From: a virus
Length of the DNA: 26,956 nt
Strand: one strand, 5' to 3'
Virus record (IMG/VR): IMGVR_UViG_3300027749_000429
Location: 1-26,956 of that record
This document shows, piece by piece, positions 11,558 to 26,497 of this stretch. Both the position numbers and the translations under genes were made by a program. The notes beneath the pieces were generated by a model, which was given only the letters and a program-made list of their open reading frames with translations, was not told the origin of the DNA and made no database searches. Within the stretch, counting starts at the first letter, position 1. Each line of letters opens with the position of its first letter.

Positions 11558-14497
11558 ATGGATGCTAAAATTTTAACCGCACTTAATAATCTTACCGACT
11601 CTTTAGATGCTATCGCAGAAGCACTTAAAAACAAATCAGCTAAATCTGATGCTGGTAAAATATTACAAGCAATTAATAATGTTGATAAAAAAATTAGTTC
11701 AATTAGCACTGGTATTAAAGGCATCAAAAAAGATACACAACAAATATTAAAAAACCAAGAAACTTTAATTAAATTATCAAGAGATAAAAGTTCAAAAACA
11801 GAAGTATTTGAAACCTCTAGTGATAAAAAATCTAAAATAAAAGATGGTGTAAGCACAGTTTTACTTATTGCTGCCGGCGTTTTAGCAATTGGTTTAGCAT
11901 TTAAAATCATAGGTCATGTTGACTTCTTTTCAGTTATTGCGCTATCCATAGCTTTACCTATTATAGCCAAATCATTTGAAATAATAGCTGGTATGAAACT
12001 TAAAAAAGGTGATATGATAAATCTATTCTTTGTCACAGTTACTATGGCAGCTTCACTGACAGCAGCTTCTTGGATAATGAGTTTAATTACACCTATAAGT
12101 ATTACGCAAAGCTTAACAGCTATTTTAATTGCTGGTTCTTTTGCCTTAATGGGTATGAGTATTGATAAAATAACTAAAGGAGTTAGAGATGTTAGATTAA
12201 TAGATTTGATTAAAGTTCCATTAGTAATGGTAGTAATGGGATATGCAATAACACAAGCTTCACATATAATGCAGGATATATCACCAATTAGCATAGCAAA
12301 AGGATTTACCGCAATAATGCTTGCGGCAACATTTGCACTTATTGGATATTCAATTGGTCAAATTACAAAAAATCTAAAAGACGTAACTGTGGCTGAAGCT
12401 TTATTAATGCCACTTATATTAATACCAGCTACATTTGCAATAGTAGTAGCGTCACATATAATACAGAAGATAGCACCAATAACTTTAAAACAAGGATTAT
12501 CTGCTATTGGAACAGCTATAGTATTAAGTGCAATGGCGTTGCCTTTAATTGTATTATCATATGCTGTAAAGAAAACTAGTGTTGTCGAAGTAGCTTTAAT
12601 GACAATTATTTTACCATTATTATCTACAGCAATTTGGCTATCATCTATGATTTTAGCAAATGTTACCCCAGTTGATACAGGATTACTTTGGAATATAGTT
12701 TTACAATCTTTAGCATACGCCGTAATGACGGTTGCCCTAGGTGTAGGTATTTATGCATTGCAAAAATTAGGTGTTACTCCTGTTACAGCATTGGAAGGTG
12801 GTATATCAATTGTAATTATTGCAGGTGCTATGGCTCTATCTTCAAAATTAATAGCAATGGGTGATTATACTAATGGTCCTTCTATTGATTGGGCAATAGG
12901 AACTGGATTAAGTATAGCTGCTTTTGGTGCCGCAGTTATGTTAATTGGTTCGGAAATAGTAGCCACCGCAGGATTAGGATTATTAGCAGTTGCAGCTGGT
13001 GCATTGGCCGTTATCGTAATTGCCAAAACTATAGTTGAATCAGCCGCAATACTAAATGGTGGTAGCTATGGTAATTATCCAACATTAGACTGGGCATTAG
13101 GTGTAGGATTATCATTAGCTGCTTTTGGAACAAGTATCATGTTAATAGGTGGTTTAGTAGTTGGTTCATTTGGGCTAGGATTAATAGCATTAGCAGCTGG
13201 TGCCGTTGCTATTAATACTATATCACAAGCAATAGTAGATTCTTCTAATATACTTAAAACTGGAACATATACAGGTGGTCCAACAGAAAAATGGGCTAAT
13301 GGTATAGCTTTATCATTAGGAGCATTTGCACCTATTTTTAAATTATTATTTGATAGAGGTATAATTGGTTTATTCTCAAAAGGTCCATCTATGGAAGATT
13401 TTGTCGGAAAAGATGGCAAAGGTGGCATAATAAGAGGTATAGCGGAATCAATAGTCGCTGCGGCAGATTTCTTTGCTAATTCCAAAGCTTCATTTACCGG
13501 AGGGCCTTCCAAAGATTGGGCGGAAGGTGTAGGTGGCGCAATCGGTGCATTTGCACCAGTATTTGAAGCAGTATCAAAATCAAAAAGCTTTTTTGGTGGT
13601 GGCATATCTATTGAAGAGTTTATTGGCACTGATGGAAAAGATGGTATAATAGTGGGTATATGTAAAGCAATAGTATCAGCAGCACAATATTTTAATAGTC
13701 CTGGAATTGGAGATATATTTAATGGTGGACCAGATGAAAAATGGTCTAACAAAATAAGCACAGCTTTATCAGCATTTGCGCCAGTATTTGATTATTTAAG
13801 TAAAAATAATGGTTGGTTTAGCAATCCTTCCGATGATTTATTAAATGCTATAACTAATATAGCACAAGGTATAGTCAGTTCAGCTAATAAATTAGCCGAA
13901 GGAAATTATGCCGTAACAATTCCGGACGATTATATGGATAAATTAGGTAGTAATATCAAAAAATATATTGAATTAGTTGATTATTTAAAAGAGAAAGATT
14001 TAGATAGCTTCTCATTAGGTAATATATTTGATGTTACTTCTGGTTTAGCAAGATTAGCAGGCGATTATGAAAAATTAGCTAAAGGTGTAAAAAGTTTAGG
14101 AAGTGCGTTAAAAGATATAGAATTGGAAAAAATAGAAGCATTAAATAAAGTTACTGGTAGTGTTATATTAATGTCTCTAATGGATCCTGATCAATTTGAA
14201 AAAATGATGGATGCCTTAGAATCTAAAGCAGGTATATTTGTATCAACTATTAAAACATTACAAGATGCTAGCACCAATGCCGCTGGACAAACACCAACAA
14301 CTAATTTTAACCAAACAACAGGTAGTGGCAAAAACAATGGAACATCTGAAATAGTAGGCGTATTAAATACTATAGCCACAAATACTAGTGGATTATCGAC
14401 ATTATCTAAATCAATAGATGGTTTAAAAACAAGTCTAACTAGTTTAATACATGAACTACAAAAAGAATCTTCTACAAGAAAAACAGGTAATAAATAA
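11558..14497 (+). CDS. Large repeat-built hydrophobic protein, candidate tail tape measure/injection protein
   Basis: The protein has 979 residues. Residues 1-90 are helical and charged. Residues ~90-740 consist of hydrophobic helical segments in nine copies of a 64-75 residue repeat. A conserved Pro marks each copy at 179, 243, 307, 371, 441, 508, 575, 650 and 725 (spacings 64, 64, 64, 70, 67, 67, 75, 75). The later copies read like GGPSKDWAEGVGGAIGAFAP with an invariant Trp. Residues ~750-979 are amphipathic helices and a Ser/Thr/Asn-rich tail. The length, helicity, hydrophobicity and position among tail genes fit a tape measure protein that fills the tube and later enters the host membrane. 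I know no exact homologue, so this is a context call. An integral membrane protein of the infected cell is the alternative. Confidence 0.6.
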   Translation: MDAKILTALNNLTDSLDAIAEALKNKSAKSDAGKILQAINNVDKKISSISTGIKGIKKDTQQILKNQETLIKLSRDKSSKTEVFETSSDKKSKIKDGVSTVLLIAAGVLAIGLAFKIIGHVDFFSVIALSIALPIIAKSFEIIAGMKLKKGDMINLFFVTVTMAASLTAASWIMSLITPISITQSLTAILIAGSFALMGMSIDKITKGVRDVRLIDLIKVPLVMVVMGYAITQASHIMQDISPISIAKGFTAIMLAATFALIGYSIGQITKNLKDVTVAEALLMPLILIPATFAIVVASHIIQKIAPITLKQGLSAIGTAIVLSAMALPLIVLSYAVKKTSVVEVALMTIILPLLSTAIWLSSMILANVTPVDTGLLWNIVLQSLAYAVMTVALGVGIYALQKLGVTPVTALEGGISIVIIAGAMALSSKLIAMGDYTNGPSIDWAIGTGLSIAAFGAAVMLIGSEIVATAGLGLLAVAAGALAVIVIAKTIVESAAILNGGSYGNYPTLDWALGVGLSLAAFGTSIMLIGGLVVGSFGLGLIALAAGAVAINTISQAIVDSSNILKTGTYTGGPTEKWANGIALSLGAFAPIFKLLFDRGIIGLFSKGPSMEDFVGKDGKGGIIRGIAESIVAAADFFANSKASFTGGPSKDWAEGVGGAIGAFAPVFEAVSKSKSFFGGGISIEEFIGTDGKDGIIVGICKAIVSAAQYFNSPGIGDIFNGGPDEKWSNKISTALSAFAPVFDYLSKNNGWFSNPSDDLLNAITNIAQGIVSSANKLAEGNYAVTIPDDYMDKLGSNIKKYIELVDYLKEKDLDSFSLGNIFDVTSGLARLAGDYEKLAKGVKSLGSALKDIELEKIEALNKVTGSVILMSLMDPDQFEKMMDALESKAGIFVSTIKTLQDASTNAAGQTPTTNFNQTTGSGKNNGTSEIVGVLNTIATNTSGLSTLSKSIDGLKTSLTSLIHELQKESSTRKTGNK
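12080..13800 (+). repeat. Nine tandem protein repeats of 64-75 residues
   Basis: Translated copies align around xPxSIxxGxxxxAxxFAxxx. Copies 1-4 (TPISITQSLTAIL, SPISIAKGFTAIM, APITLKQGLSAIG, TPVDTGLLWNIVL) are spaced exactly 64 residues apart. Copies 5-9 (NGPSIDW, NYPTLDW, GGPTEKW, GGPSKDW, GGPDEKW) are spaced 67, 67, 75 and 75. The repeats are visible in protein; DNA identity between copies is modest, so the expansion is old. Confidence 0.8.
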
Positions 14498-16062: not shown

Positions 16063-16272
16063 CTATTTCTTATATATATATAAAAAGAAAAAATAATTTT
16101 TTCTTTTTATATATATATAAGAATTAGGTCTTTGTTCAAATATACCATGTGTTTTACAGATTATTTTAACCTTTATACCATCATTTACATATTCCGACAA
16201 TGAATAGTCAAATAAATCTTCATGTTTTAAGTTGGATTTTTCTATGAATTCTTTATTTGTTAGCCTTCTCAT
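16063..16272 (-). pseudogene. Truncated copy of the zinc-repeat endonuclease gene
   Basis: The first ~53 residues (MRRLTNKEFIEKS... to QRPNSYI) match the N-terminus of the intact endonuclease at 25802, with paired motifs such as IICKTHGIFEQ versus IICKIHGEFEI. Then the frame enters the palindrome at 16067-16123, reads low-complexity Lys/Tyr/Phe, and stops. The second zinc pair (C-x2-C), the second zinc repeat and the whole nuclease domain are missing, so it cannot be an active endonuclease. It overlaps the upstream small zinc gene by exactly 20 nt, the same overlap as in the intact cassette, showing that both genes arrived together. Confidence 0.85.
16067..16123. repeat. Perfect 57-bp AT-rich palindrome
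   Basis: Arms 16067-16094 and 16096-16123 are exact reverse complements (28 bp each) around a single unpaired base at 16095. Each arm has a (TA)n run and A5GA6. It marks the truncation point of the endonuclease remnant and supplies the TATATATATAA upstream of the gene starting at 16048. It could be a rearrangement scar, a DNA cruciform or an assembly fold-back. Confidence 0.9.
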
Positions 16273-16399
16273 TTTTTAATTTATTTTTTAATCTTTGTCT
16301 ATATTTCTTTTCATTCCTTTGACAATTTCCGGAACAATATTTTTTATTCAACTTTCCAGTTATTTCTTTATCACAATTTCTGTAATTACATTTTCTCAT
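16253..16399 (-). CDS. Small zinc-binding protein (Cx4C...Cx3C), partner of endonuclease cassette
   Basis: This 48-residue basic protein has Cys at 4, 9, 22 and 26 (MRKCNYRNCDKEI ... KKYCSGNCQRN), a C-x4-C / C-x3-C arrangement that predicts a small zinc ribbon or treble clef, followed by a Lys/Arg-rich helix. It is a clear paralogue of the 46-residue protein at 25681 (shared YRNC, KxYC, xxC spacing and basic tail). Its 3' end overlaps the start of the endonuclease remnant by 20 nt, exactly as in the intact cassette. Since the endonuclease partner is destroyed here, this copy is likely a relic still able to be translated. DNA binding is inferred from charge and the zinc motif. Confidence 0.75.
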   Translation of the reverse strand: MRKCNYRNCDKEITGKLNKKYCSGNCQRNEKKYRQRLKNKLKNEKANK

Positions 16400-16511
16400 A
16401 TACTATATATTATATTTTTGTCCTCTATTTGTCCTCTATTTGAAAAAATTATTATTTTTATTCTAAACAAATGCTCAATTATATTATAAAAGTTAAAAGA
16501 AAATAAATTAT
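16400..16511. promoter_or_regulatory. Divergent intergenic region with 11-bp tandem repeat
   Basis: This 112-bp gap lies between the small zinc gene (-) and the gene at 16512 (+). It contains the 11-bp unit TTTGTCCTCTA twice in tandem (16417-16427, 16428-16438) plus a further TTTG, in an otherwise A/T-only stretch. Both promoters must lie here. The repeat could be an operator or simple slippage. Confidence 0.4.
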
Positions 16512-24901: not shown

Positions 24902-24935
24902 AATAAAAAAAGATGGTTTCCCATCTTTTTTTATT
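24902..24935 (-). terminator. Terminator of the tail tube gene
   Basis: A 15-bp stem (24902-24916 with 24921-24935) has core AGATGG/CCATCT and long A/T flanks with a 4-nt loop TTTC. It begins at the tail tube stop codon and ends about 13 nt before the next minus-strand ATG. Confidence 0.85.
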
Positions 24936-25548
24936 AATAACCATGTATATAAGGGTCTGTAATTACGACACCATTATCAATGTAATCATCAATCCAGTAA
25001 TCCGCTATGAATTTAGCTGTTGCATTTCCAATATCATTAGAATCAAATTTCAATTCAGTTGAATTTATACCCATAAGCTGAACATTTTGAAAAGTTACTC
25101 TTCTTAAAACTAATCCTTTTTTATCATGTTGATTTACTATTACAGTTCCAATAGTATCTGCTTTGTAGTGTAAAGCACCAGTTTGAGAGTTCCAAACTAA
25201 ATCATACCAAGCTTTTAAAGTAGCCCAAGTCTCCATAGAACCAGAATTATTTACGTTTACATTAAAAGTAATATCAAACGCAGTATCTGTTTTTTCAGGA
25301 GTCTTTAAAAACATTCTAGTTGAATATTTAAACTTTTGAGTAGCTGTTGGAATATCTGGTGTTAAATCTAAAGTTACATTAGTAGCTTGCTCCAATAACA
25401 TCAGAGAATCACGTTTCTGACCTTGTAAAATTGTTGGTAAGATAAACGATATCTCAAACAGGTTTAAAAATACTGGTTCCTGTGGTGTTGTACCTGGAGC
25501 ACCTGGTGCACCGGTCATCTCTAATTGATTATAGTGAGGTAAGGGCAT
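24934..25548 (-). CDS. Tail tube protein (T4 gp19-like)
   Basis: This 204-residue protein is predicted to form the inner tail tube that the sheath contracts around. It begins with a Pro/Gly-rich arm (MTGAPGAPGTTPQEP). The core has the gp19/VgrG-tube beta-barrel pattern: NLFEISFILP, FDITFNVNVNNSG, a central helix WATLKAWYDLVW, then TIGTVIVNQHDKKGLVLRRVTFQNVQL, where a [I/V]xQxDxxGxxxRRxTFxN-type stretch is typical of the family. The C-terminus is ATAKFIADYWIDDYI. The length is right for gp19 (163-210 residues). It has its own promoter region, a long A-rich leader (about 50 nt) and its own terminator, fitting high monocistronic expression. It is remote from and opposite to the sheath gene, unlike the adjacent sheath-tube order of T4. 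Confidence 0.8.
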   Translation of the reverse strand: MPLPHYNQLEMTGAPGAPGTTPQEPVFLNLFEISFILPTILQGQKRDSLMLLEQATNVTLDLTPDIPTATQKFKYSTRMFLKTPEKTDTAFDITFNVNVNNSGSMETWATLKAWYDLVWNSQTGALHYKADTIGTVIVNQHDKKGLVLRRVTFQNVQLMGINSTELKFDSNDIGNATAKFIADYWIDDYIDNGVVITDPYIHGY

Positions 25549-25622: not shown

Positions 25623-25656
25623 CTTTTTATAATTTATTTATATAAATTATAAAAAG
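25623..25656. repeat. 15-bp inverted repeat (AT hairpin) upstream of endonuclease cassette
   Basis: CTTTTTATAATTTAT pairs perfectly with ATAAATTATAAAAAG around a 4-nt loop. There is no T tract after it on the + strand. It may be a weak terminator or transcript leader structure, or the boundary of the inserted cassette. Confidence 0.6.
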
Positions 25657-25670
25657 GGCTATACAAAATT

Positions 25671-25679
25671 AATATATAA
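25671..25679 (+). promoter_or_regulatory. AATATATAA box, 1 nt before the small zinc gene
   Basis: The 9-mer AATATATAA is followed by T and the ATG at 25681, the first gene of the endonuclease cassette. This is the tightest spacing of the boxes listed. Confidence 0.35.
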
Positions 25680-25680
25680 T

Positions 25681-25821
25681 ATGAGAATATGCAAATATAG
25701 AAACTGTAATAAGATCTTAAAAGGCAGAAAAGATAAACAATACTGCGATAGGTCTTGCAAATGTATGGAAAATACATATAGAAAAAGAGATATAAAAAAA
25801 TATGAAAAGATTAACAAATGA
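25681..25821 (+). CDS. Small zinc-binding protein (Cx4C...Cx3C), first gene of endonuclease cassette
   Basis: This 46-residue basic protein has Cys at 4, 9, 22 and 26 (MRICKYRNCNKIL ... KQYCDRSCKC), predicting a small zinc ribbon or treble clef, plus a Lys/Arg/Tyr-rich C-terminal helix. It is the intact-locus paralogue of the minus-strand protein at 16253-16399. Its last 20 nt overlap the endonuclease start in another frame (25802-25821), so the two are co-translated. The TGA stop is one of few here. It may assist DNA binding or regulate the endonuclease, or bind zinc for it; none of this is proven by sequence. It is too short to be picked up by usual length cut-offs. Confidence 0.75.
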   Translation: MRICKYRNCNKILKGRKDKQYCDRSCKCMENTYRKRDIKKYEKINK

Positions 25822-26497
25822 AGATTTTATTATAAAGTGCAAAGAAATACATGGTGATAAATTTGATTATTTTAAAACTAACTATATAAATACCAGGACA
25901 AAAATAATTATAATATGCAAAATACATGGTGAATTTGAAATAACACCAGATAATCATATTAATCAAAAACAAGGGTGTGTCAAATGTGCAAGAGATAATC
26001 ATAAATTAACAAAACTTTCTAATGAGAGGTTAGAAAGTTTTAAAAAAATACATAATAATAAATATTCATATTTAGATTTATCAGTAAATAATGGAATAAT
26101 TAATATAATTTGCCCAGAACATGGTAAATTTGAGCAAATTATTTATAATCACGAAAAAGGGCATGGGTGCCCAGATTGCAACTCATCTAAAGGAGAAGAA
26201 AAAATTAAATCAATTTTAGAAAGTAAAAATATCAAGTTTAAAAGAAATCATGAATTTGAAGATTGTAAAAGGAAAAGAAAATTAAGATTTGATTTTCATT
26301 TACCAGAACTCAATACATGTATTGAGTATGATGGTGAGCATCATTATATAGAAAATCAATATTTTGGCGAAGGTAATTTAGAATACATGAAATTAAATGA
26401 TGATATAAAAAATAAATATTGTTATAATAATGGTATAAAATTAATTAGAATACCCTACTGGGAATTTGAAAATATTGATGATTTAATTAATATATAA
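25802..26497 (+). CDS. Free-standing homing-type endonuclease: two zinc repeats plus Vsr-like nuclease
   Basis: The protein has 231 residues. Two tandem zinc modules each carry C-x2-H ... C-x2-C: C39/H42/C59/C62 and C104/H107/C123/C126 (IICKIHGEF...GCVKC and IICPEHGKF...GCPDC). They are followed by a Vsr/PD-(D/E)XK-type nuclease domain (about 130-231): FDFHLPEL (D164), CIEYDGEHH (E175, D177, H180/H181), then KNKYCYNNGIKLIRIPYWE. Such proteins are common in phages as free-standing homing endonucleases that cut a cognate site and spread by repair. It overlaps the small zinc gene by 20 nt. A 5'-fragment of a second copy remains at 16063-16272. The gene lies between the tail tube and a small packaged-type gene, a typical intergenic insertion. 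Cleavage activity and target are unknown. Confidence 0.85.
   Translation: MKRLTNEDFIIKCKEIHGDKFDYFKTNYINTRTKIIIICKIHGEFEITPDNHINQKQGCVKCARDNHKLTKLSNERLESFKKIHNNKYSYLDLSVNNGIINIICPEHGKFEQIIYNHEKGHGCPDCNSSKGEEKIKSILESKNIKFKRNHEFEDCKRKRKLRFDFHLPELNTCIEYDGEHHYIENQYFGEGNLEYMKLNDDIKNKYCYNNGIKLIRIPYWEFENIDDLINI

Follow-up and report, generated by a model that had tools for sequence, protein, structure and literature searches.

The DNA analyzed here, a window of 26,956 nucleotides comprising positions 1–26,956 of the IMG/VR record IMGVR_UViG_3300027749_000429, contains two examples of what appears to be a mobile two-gene unit, in which a small zinc-finger ORF precedes and overlaps the gene for a homing endonuclease. 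Comparison with sequences of related environmental phages established the pairing and overlap of the two genes, purifying selection on the small ORF, its mobility within an insert, its exchange among nucleases, its fusion to a nuclease, the existence of nuclease-free forms, and the association of the small ORF with an upstream box. With regard to function, it is about an even chance that the unit is a homing cassette of two genes whose small protein binds the box beside the promoter and restrains expression of the nuclease that follows. Phages commonly carry free-standing homing endonucleases, and the restraint of their toxicity has been detailed for few of them.

Both small-ORF/nuclease pairs reported by a first-pass annotation of this DNA, at 16063–16399 on the minus strand and 25681–26497 on the plus strand, were found there. 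In copy 1 (minus strand), a small zinc ORF of 48 aa (16253–16399; MRKCNYRNCDKEITGKLNKKYCSGNCQRNEKKYRQRLKNKLKNEKANK), assigned to its family by HMM and belonging to the RNE subfamily, is followed by a nuclease fragment of 69 aa (16063–16272) that matches PHROG 559 at 2e-10; the two overlap out of frame by 20 nt (16253–16272). In copy 2 (plus strand), a small zinc ORF of 46 aa from the ME..YRKR subfamily (25681–25821) overlaps an intact free-standing homing endonuclease of 231 aa (25802–26497), again out of frame and by 20 nt (25802–25821). The pattern C-x4-C ... C-x3-C is present in both small ORFs. Immediately 5′ of copy 1 are two tandem AGAGGACAAA boxes and a AATATATA late-type promoter motif (16404–16437, minus strand), and 5′ of copy 2 are a GGGCTATACAA box and the same promoter motif (25656–25678, plus strand). 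While the pair itself recurs in relatives, the 20-nt overlap common to the two window pairs is not general: overlap length varies from 11 to 43 nt among 19 split pairs and is 20 nt in only four of them. The same relative frame is used in 15 of the 19, and none is in frame. The nuclease codons LTN[K/E] themselves contain the stop of the small ORF; the matching overlap lengths therefore do not count as separate evidence, and the identity of the 20-nt overlaps in copies 1 and 2 is judged to be inherited.

Copy 1 had been described as a decayed second copy whose nuclease is lost past about residue 53. The decay was confirmed, as homology stops at that point, inside the first zinc repeat, with residues 1–56 of the fragment aligned to the copy 2 nuclease at ~48–49% identity (E 1.2e-11). 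Descent as a copy of copy 2 was not, since contig L022 is nearer to copy 1; identity to L022 is 58% for the nuclease fragment and 71% for the small ORF, while the small ORFs of copies 1 and 2 are 48% identical. A recent duplication linking the two copies is ruled out by this closer kinship, and the copies are judged to be one kind of cassette from two different sublineages. A perfect inverted repeat of 57 nt with 28-bp arms (16067–16123) starts exactly at the end of the copy 1 nuclease homology; this palindrome may be a terminator or a scar that a template switch left at the truncation.

The copy 2 nuclease is of a known kind. It belongs to PHROG 559 (2.6e-57), scores 23.3 bits against DUF723 (curated cut-off 20.9), and consists of two DUF723/DUF4379-like zinc repeats followed by a Vsr-like/EDxHD catalytic domain (about residues 129–226); residues D164, E175, D177, H181, and D200 are invariant in 10 nuclease homologues. 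The catalytic fold was tested on an AlphaFold model of the homologue L338, which is 58% identical to the window nuclease, with the window protein included in a 32-row alignment. This model aligned with 3R3P at Z 10.9 over 91 residues and with Vsr (1CW0) at Z 10.6, and Foldseek ranked 3r3p first, at an E value of only 0.0046. As modeled in this homologue, the catalytic fold of the copy 2 nuclease is of the I-Bth0305I/Vsr EDxHD type.

The small-ORF family was gathered by iterated scans of IMG/VR together with profile searches. It comprises 26 distinct loci, usually one per contig, and profile searching recovered the ORF in about 27 further records. No convincing match was found in Pfam, PHROG, or NCBIfam, there was no match to DUF723, and no solved relative was found by sequence. 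A tblastn search of isolated phages with three family members returned only Vibrio phages 230E39-1/137E35-1, in which no nuclease adjoins it, one unrelated larger protein, and LR756502.1, a metagenomic phage record in which the small ORF occurs in fused form. The relative in Vibrio phage 230E39-1 (L004; OX241570.1 32249–32374) is annotated in other frames and has no adjacent homing gene. The small ORF was not found in plasmids, nor in GTDB genomes with the single pattern used. An AlphaFold model of the copy 2 small protein (pLDDT 94.6) has a cysteine knuckle and a helix (residues 24–45), with C22-x3-C26 at the start of this basic helix, and the small protein carries 17 lysines and arginines against four to five aspartates and glutamates. 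The protein is predicted to form a treble-clef-like finger with a basic helix, a term used for description rather than membership because its best solved structural neighbors are weak (Z 5.2 and 3.5); a Foldseek search with the finger model gave no significant match. It probably binds both zinc and DNA.

An absence of purifying selection had been named in advance as evidence that would count against the small ORF, and selection was found in most of the pairs tested. When dN/dS was computed on the first 38 codons, the part of the small ORF outside the overlap, values were 0.03–0.54 where calculable and mostly below 0.3. Nonsynonymous change was lower than synonymous change in 16 of 18 separate-ORF pairs (bootstrap P < 0.05), the weaker pairs being L019–L017 (P 0.13) and window copy 2–L152 (P 0.07). 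Purifying selection was seen for the copy 1 small ORF in comparison with L022, and also between the small ORFs of L050 and L052, although the nuclease frame of L052 is broken.

Almost all small-ORF loci adjoin a homing endonuclease, and at least four types are represented. The possibility that the zinc protein accompanies only the endonuclease type seen in the window can be set aside: EDxHD/Vsr-like nucleases lie behind it in the window and in L017, L020, L021, L022, L024, L058, L139, and L144, HNH nucleases in L016, L018, L023, L051, L152, and L324, a GIY-YIG nuclease in L050 (decayed in L052), and DUF7487-type nucleases in L047, L053, and L361, with those of L361, L018, and L023 typed by sequence motif only. 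The arrangement of the two genes also varies. A gap rather than an overlap separates them in L018 and L023, an HNH gene or remnant is found 5′ of the small ORF instead in L029 and L054, the nuclease is likewise upstream in L015, the HNH gene accompanying the small ORF is truncated in L019, and the small ORF is solo in L027 and L386. The small ORFs of L050 and L051 are closely alike, with many silent changes between them, and precede unrelated nucleases (GIY-YIG and HNH); the module has therefore been exchanged. Likewise, the genes neighboring the small ORF differ among loci, and it therefore moves. It had been stated in advance that the functional pairing would be refuted if related endonucleases usually lacked the small ORF. 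This is true family-wide, as only 2 of the best 80 loci of the wide EDxHD/zinc-repeat nuclease family have one, but false within the cassette's own clade. No small ORF was found at the nucleases of isolates such as GAP32, KP13-7, FpV4, and fHSPT3, and the L060/L061 and L383/L390 nucleases have none.

Copy 2 and its relatives are inserted in the intergenic region upstream of a conserved neighbor gene of unknown function (PHROG 32623; 24934–25548, minus strand). In relatives, this site is found empty or occupied by a split pair, a nuclease only (L383, L390), a fused gene, a short fused gene, or a solo small ORF. Of 76 contigs whose sequence was long enough for a census, many of them near-copies so that the counts are not independent, 38 had the zinc domain (in 14 as a separate gene, in 9 fused, and in 15 short fused), two had the nuclease alone, and 36 had neither. 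The insert thus lies between genes conserved in relatives, some of which have the site unoccupied, as expected of a free-standing homing endonuclease gene. Alignment of the empty sites of L349 and L350 with the occupied sites of L351, L336, and L354 placed the left junction upstream of the box and promoter, while at the right junction the alignment picks up again in the final nuclease codons. This comparison of empty sites, which the first-pass annotation had called for, locates the small ORF, the promoter, and the upstream box all inside the insert.

Small ORF and nuclease are fused in frame as a single ORF in L338, L334, L360, and others. The fused proteins align end to end with the small ORF plus the nuclease, and in L356 and L334 the start methionine of the separate gene survives where the two parts meet. 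The fused sequences group as a single clade (100/99) within the split clade, and the split arrangement is therefore the older state there. L022 and L144, both split, fall in other parts of the nuclease tree, surrounded by nucleases that lack a small ORF; the pairing therefore arose more than once. Short fused proteins (L371, L392, L394) of 112–118 aa have both zinc modules without the nuclease, with dN/dS of 0.05–0.12 among the three, and purifying selection is also seen between the small ORFs of L361 and L386, the latter solo. Such nuclease-free two-finger proteins (L371, L392, L394, and near-copies) are present at the homing site in many contigs and are candidate domesticated repressors or immunity genes. 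Nucleases of the isolates Munch, phiKp_21, Vibrio 1.086, and PS17B.1 that matched the fused protein from residue 14–26 onward were rejected as carriers of the finger, as they have only zinc repeats in that part. In L201 (G004:C1:58875), an HNH gene behind a GGACA box has an N-terminus resembling a degenerate zinc finger; joined at a methionine to the usual HNH start, this is possibly a second, independent fusion. Taken together, the pairing, the selection, the placement within the insertion, and the fusion clade support the original suggestion that the small protein is a functional component of the mobile unit.

The AATATATA motif just 5′ of the ATG is a general motif of the window phage, but the box above it is not. 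Small ORFs of the N subfamily (C-x3-C-x-x-N-E) have AGGACA in all 14 cases with a box, those of the M subfamily have an ATACA-type box in 8 of 8, and the window has one box of each type. In the nuclease tree, the small-ORF subfamily changes four times and the box changes each time, with two of these contrasts on well-supported branches. The box is judged to follow the small-ORF subfamily and not the nuclease, a match (p = 3e-6) for which boxes were defined after sequence inspection and descent was ignored. The two being linked, the match may come from shared descent. Of 20 GGACA-box matches in the contigs searched, 18 are located in front of a small ORF or another homing nuclease, and five of the seven distinct matches not before a small ORF precede nucleases. 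The nucleases of L189, L194, and L197 have the box without a small ORF of their own. On the minus strand of L282, a GGAGGACAAAACATTTAATATATA element was observed before an SprT-like metallopeptidase, which shows that the box can also precede genes other than homing genes. The box takes the form of a dyad, GGGAGGACAGTCCTCCC, in L021, and is lacking at the small ORFs of L018, L023, L054, and L015; in the fused clade, the sequence upstream is different. When all of IMG/VR was scanned for the GGACA box combined with the promoter, most hits were due to chance, and the scan was unusable as a test. Elsewhere in the window, a TTAATATATA-type motif is found ~4 nt before the ATG of the genes at 11558, 23121, 23171, and 26501; if it is a −10 element, it would give leaderless or near-leaderless transcripts. 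An N-terminus of the form MK(Y)(I/L)K(L/T)(F/Y)E(N/D/K)F is shared by otherwise unlike proteins (window genes at 1170, 16048, 23171, and 26501, and many related loci) and is perhaps a targeting leader, by analogy with the capsid-targeting sequences of T4-like phages.

In the proposed mechanism, one putative late-type promoter with a cassette-specific upstream box would drive both genes. The ~46-aa zinc protein would be translated first and the endonuclease via the 11–43-nt out-of-frame overlap, probably through translational coupling between the two. The small protein would be a DNA-binding module that moves between nucleases of unrelated folds and, at the box, would restrain the nuclease behind it, an autoregulation like that of I-TevI at its own late promoter. 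Autoregulation would account for one small protein serving unrelated nucleases, for a box that follows the small ORF, and for a small ORF that outlives its nuclease. The fusion clade, however, supports a recognition subunit at least as well. It is possible, if doubtful, that the small protein serves the nuclease as a subunit for target recognition or assembly, encoded by a gene of its own, that binds homing-site DNA or bridges to the zinc repeats, the fused proteins doing in one chain the work of two split ones. The in-frame fusion is to a zinc-repeat nuclease, homing endonucleases are built of modules, the DNA-binding ones being exchanged among them (PMC3943268, PMC10448857), and small-ORF and nuclease distances are weakly correlated (Mantel r 0.32, p 0.003), all of which would suit a subunit. 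Four unrelated nuclease folds would nevertheless require four interfaces, and the small ORF lasts alone or without a nuclease under selection, while the box tracks the small ORF rather than the nuclease. A role as an antitoxin of the nuclease was also considered, and is not separated from regulation by the data here.

Given that the cysteines and helix of the small protein are strongly conserved, with dN/dS mostly below 0.3 outside the overlap, it is very unlikely that the small ORF is only a translated leader, a functionless peptide whose coupling keeps nuclease translation low; conservation of the overlap and the T4 genes segC, mobA, mobC, and segF, which overlap an upstream ORF by 11–24 bp (PMC2988022), would fit this explanation, but a fusion clade, loci with a gap (L018, L023), and loci with the nuclease upstream (L015/L029, L054) would not. 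Programmed frameshifting within the overlap, making the natural product a fusion as in the L338 clade, would draw on the A-rich overlaps, the real fusions in relatives, and the same relative frame of 15 of 19 overlaps. The majority frame, however, needs a +1 (or −2) shift and four overlaps need another, the overlaps show no slippery site or stop context in common, and every nuclease has a well-placed ATG of its own, leaving little probability for this mechanism. The solo copies (L027, L386), the upstream nucleases of L029 and L054, and the Vibrio phage 230E39-1 relative without such a neighbor might suggest a gene resident in its own right, next to which homing genes have inserted by coincidence. 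This is improbable, as the small ORF is absent from empty sites, is enclosed by the junctions, and occurs in many different gene neighborhoods, and the solo copies can be remnants.

A broader version of the autoregulation proposal is offered more tentatively. The small protein may be a portable regulator that, with its cognate operator box, forms the shared front end of homing cassettes with unrelated nucleases, acting in cis, perhaps in trans on other homing genes of the phage that have the box, and persisting without a nuclease as an immunity or repressor gene. A cassette-borne zinc-finger ORF common to unrelated homing nucleases was not found in a limited literature search. If the partner gene restrains unrelated nucleases, it would represent a general solution to homing-nuclease toxicity, and the natural series of split and fused forms with matching boxes makes its role directly testable. 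The nuclease-free forms would suggest a route from selfish genes to DNA-binding proteins without a nuclease, and the small ORF can serve as a marker for finding such cassettes in metagenomes.

Several known systems bear comparison with this cassette. The profile of phrog_4605 (unknown function) matches L392 and L338 over the zinc repeat and the last part of the fused finger, but it does not match the separate small ORF, and the isolates checked have zinc repeats only, without the YRNC finger. Autorepression of I-TevI at its late promoter (PMC2988022) is a precedent for the proposed regulation. The T4 seg and mob genes are alike in overlapping an upstream ORF, likely with coupling or ribosome scanning (PMC2988022); in T4 that ORF belongs to the phage itself and not to the mobile unit, whereas here no such resident partner is involved and the small ORF lies inside the insertion. 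I-Bth0305I (EDxHD, Vsr-like) has the catalytic domain in common with the cassette nuclease, as judged on homologue L338, but the DNA-binding part here consists of DUF723-like zinc repeats and is preceded by a separate, overlapping zinc ORF. The phage homing endonucleases of the DUF723/DUF4379/CapR group are alike in their zinc repeats and in modular swapping with nuclease domains (PMC10448857). They also provide a precedent for nuclease-free repressors in CapR, which originated from the zinc fingers of homing endonucleases (PMC10448857). In contrast to that group, the C-x4-C/C-x3-C finger of the present cassette is another domain, usually encoded by a gene of its own.
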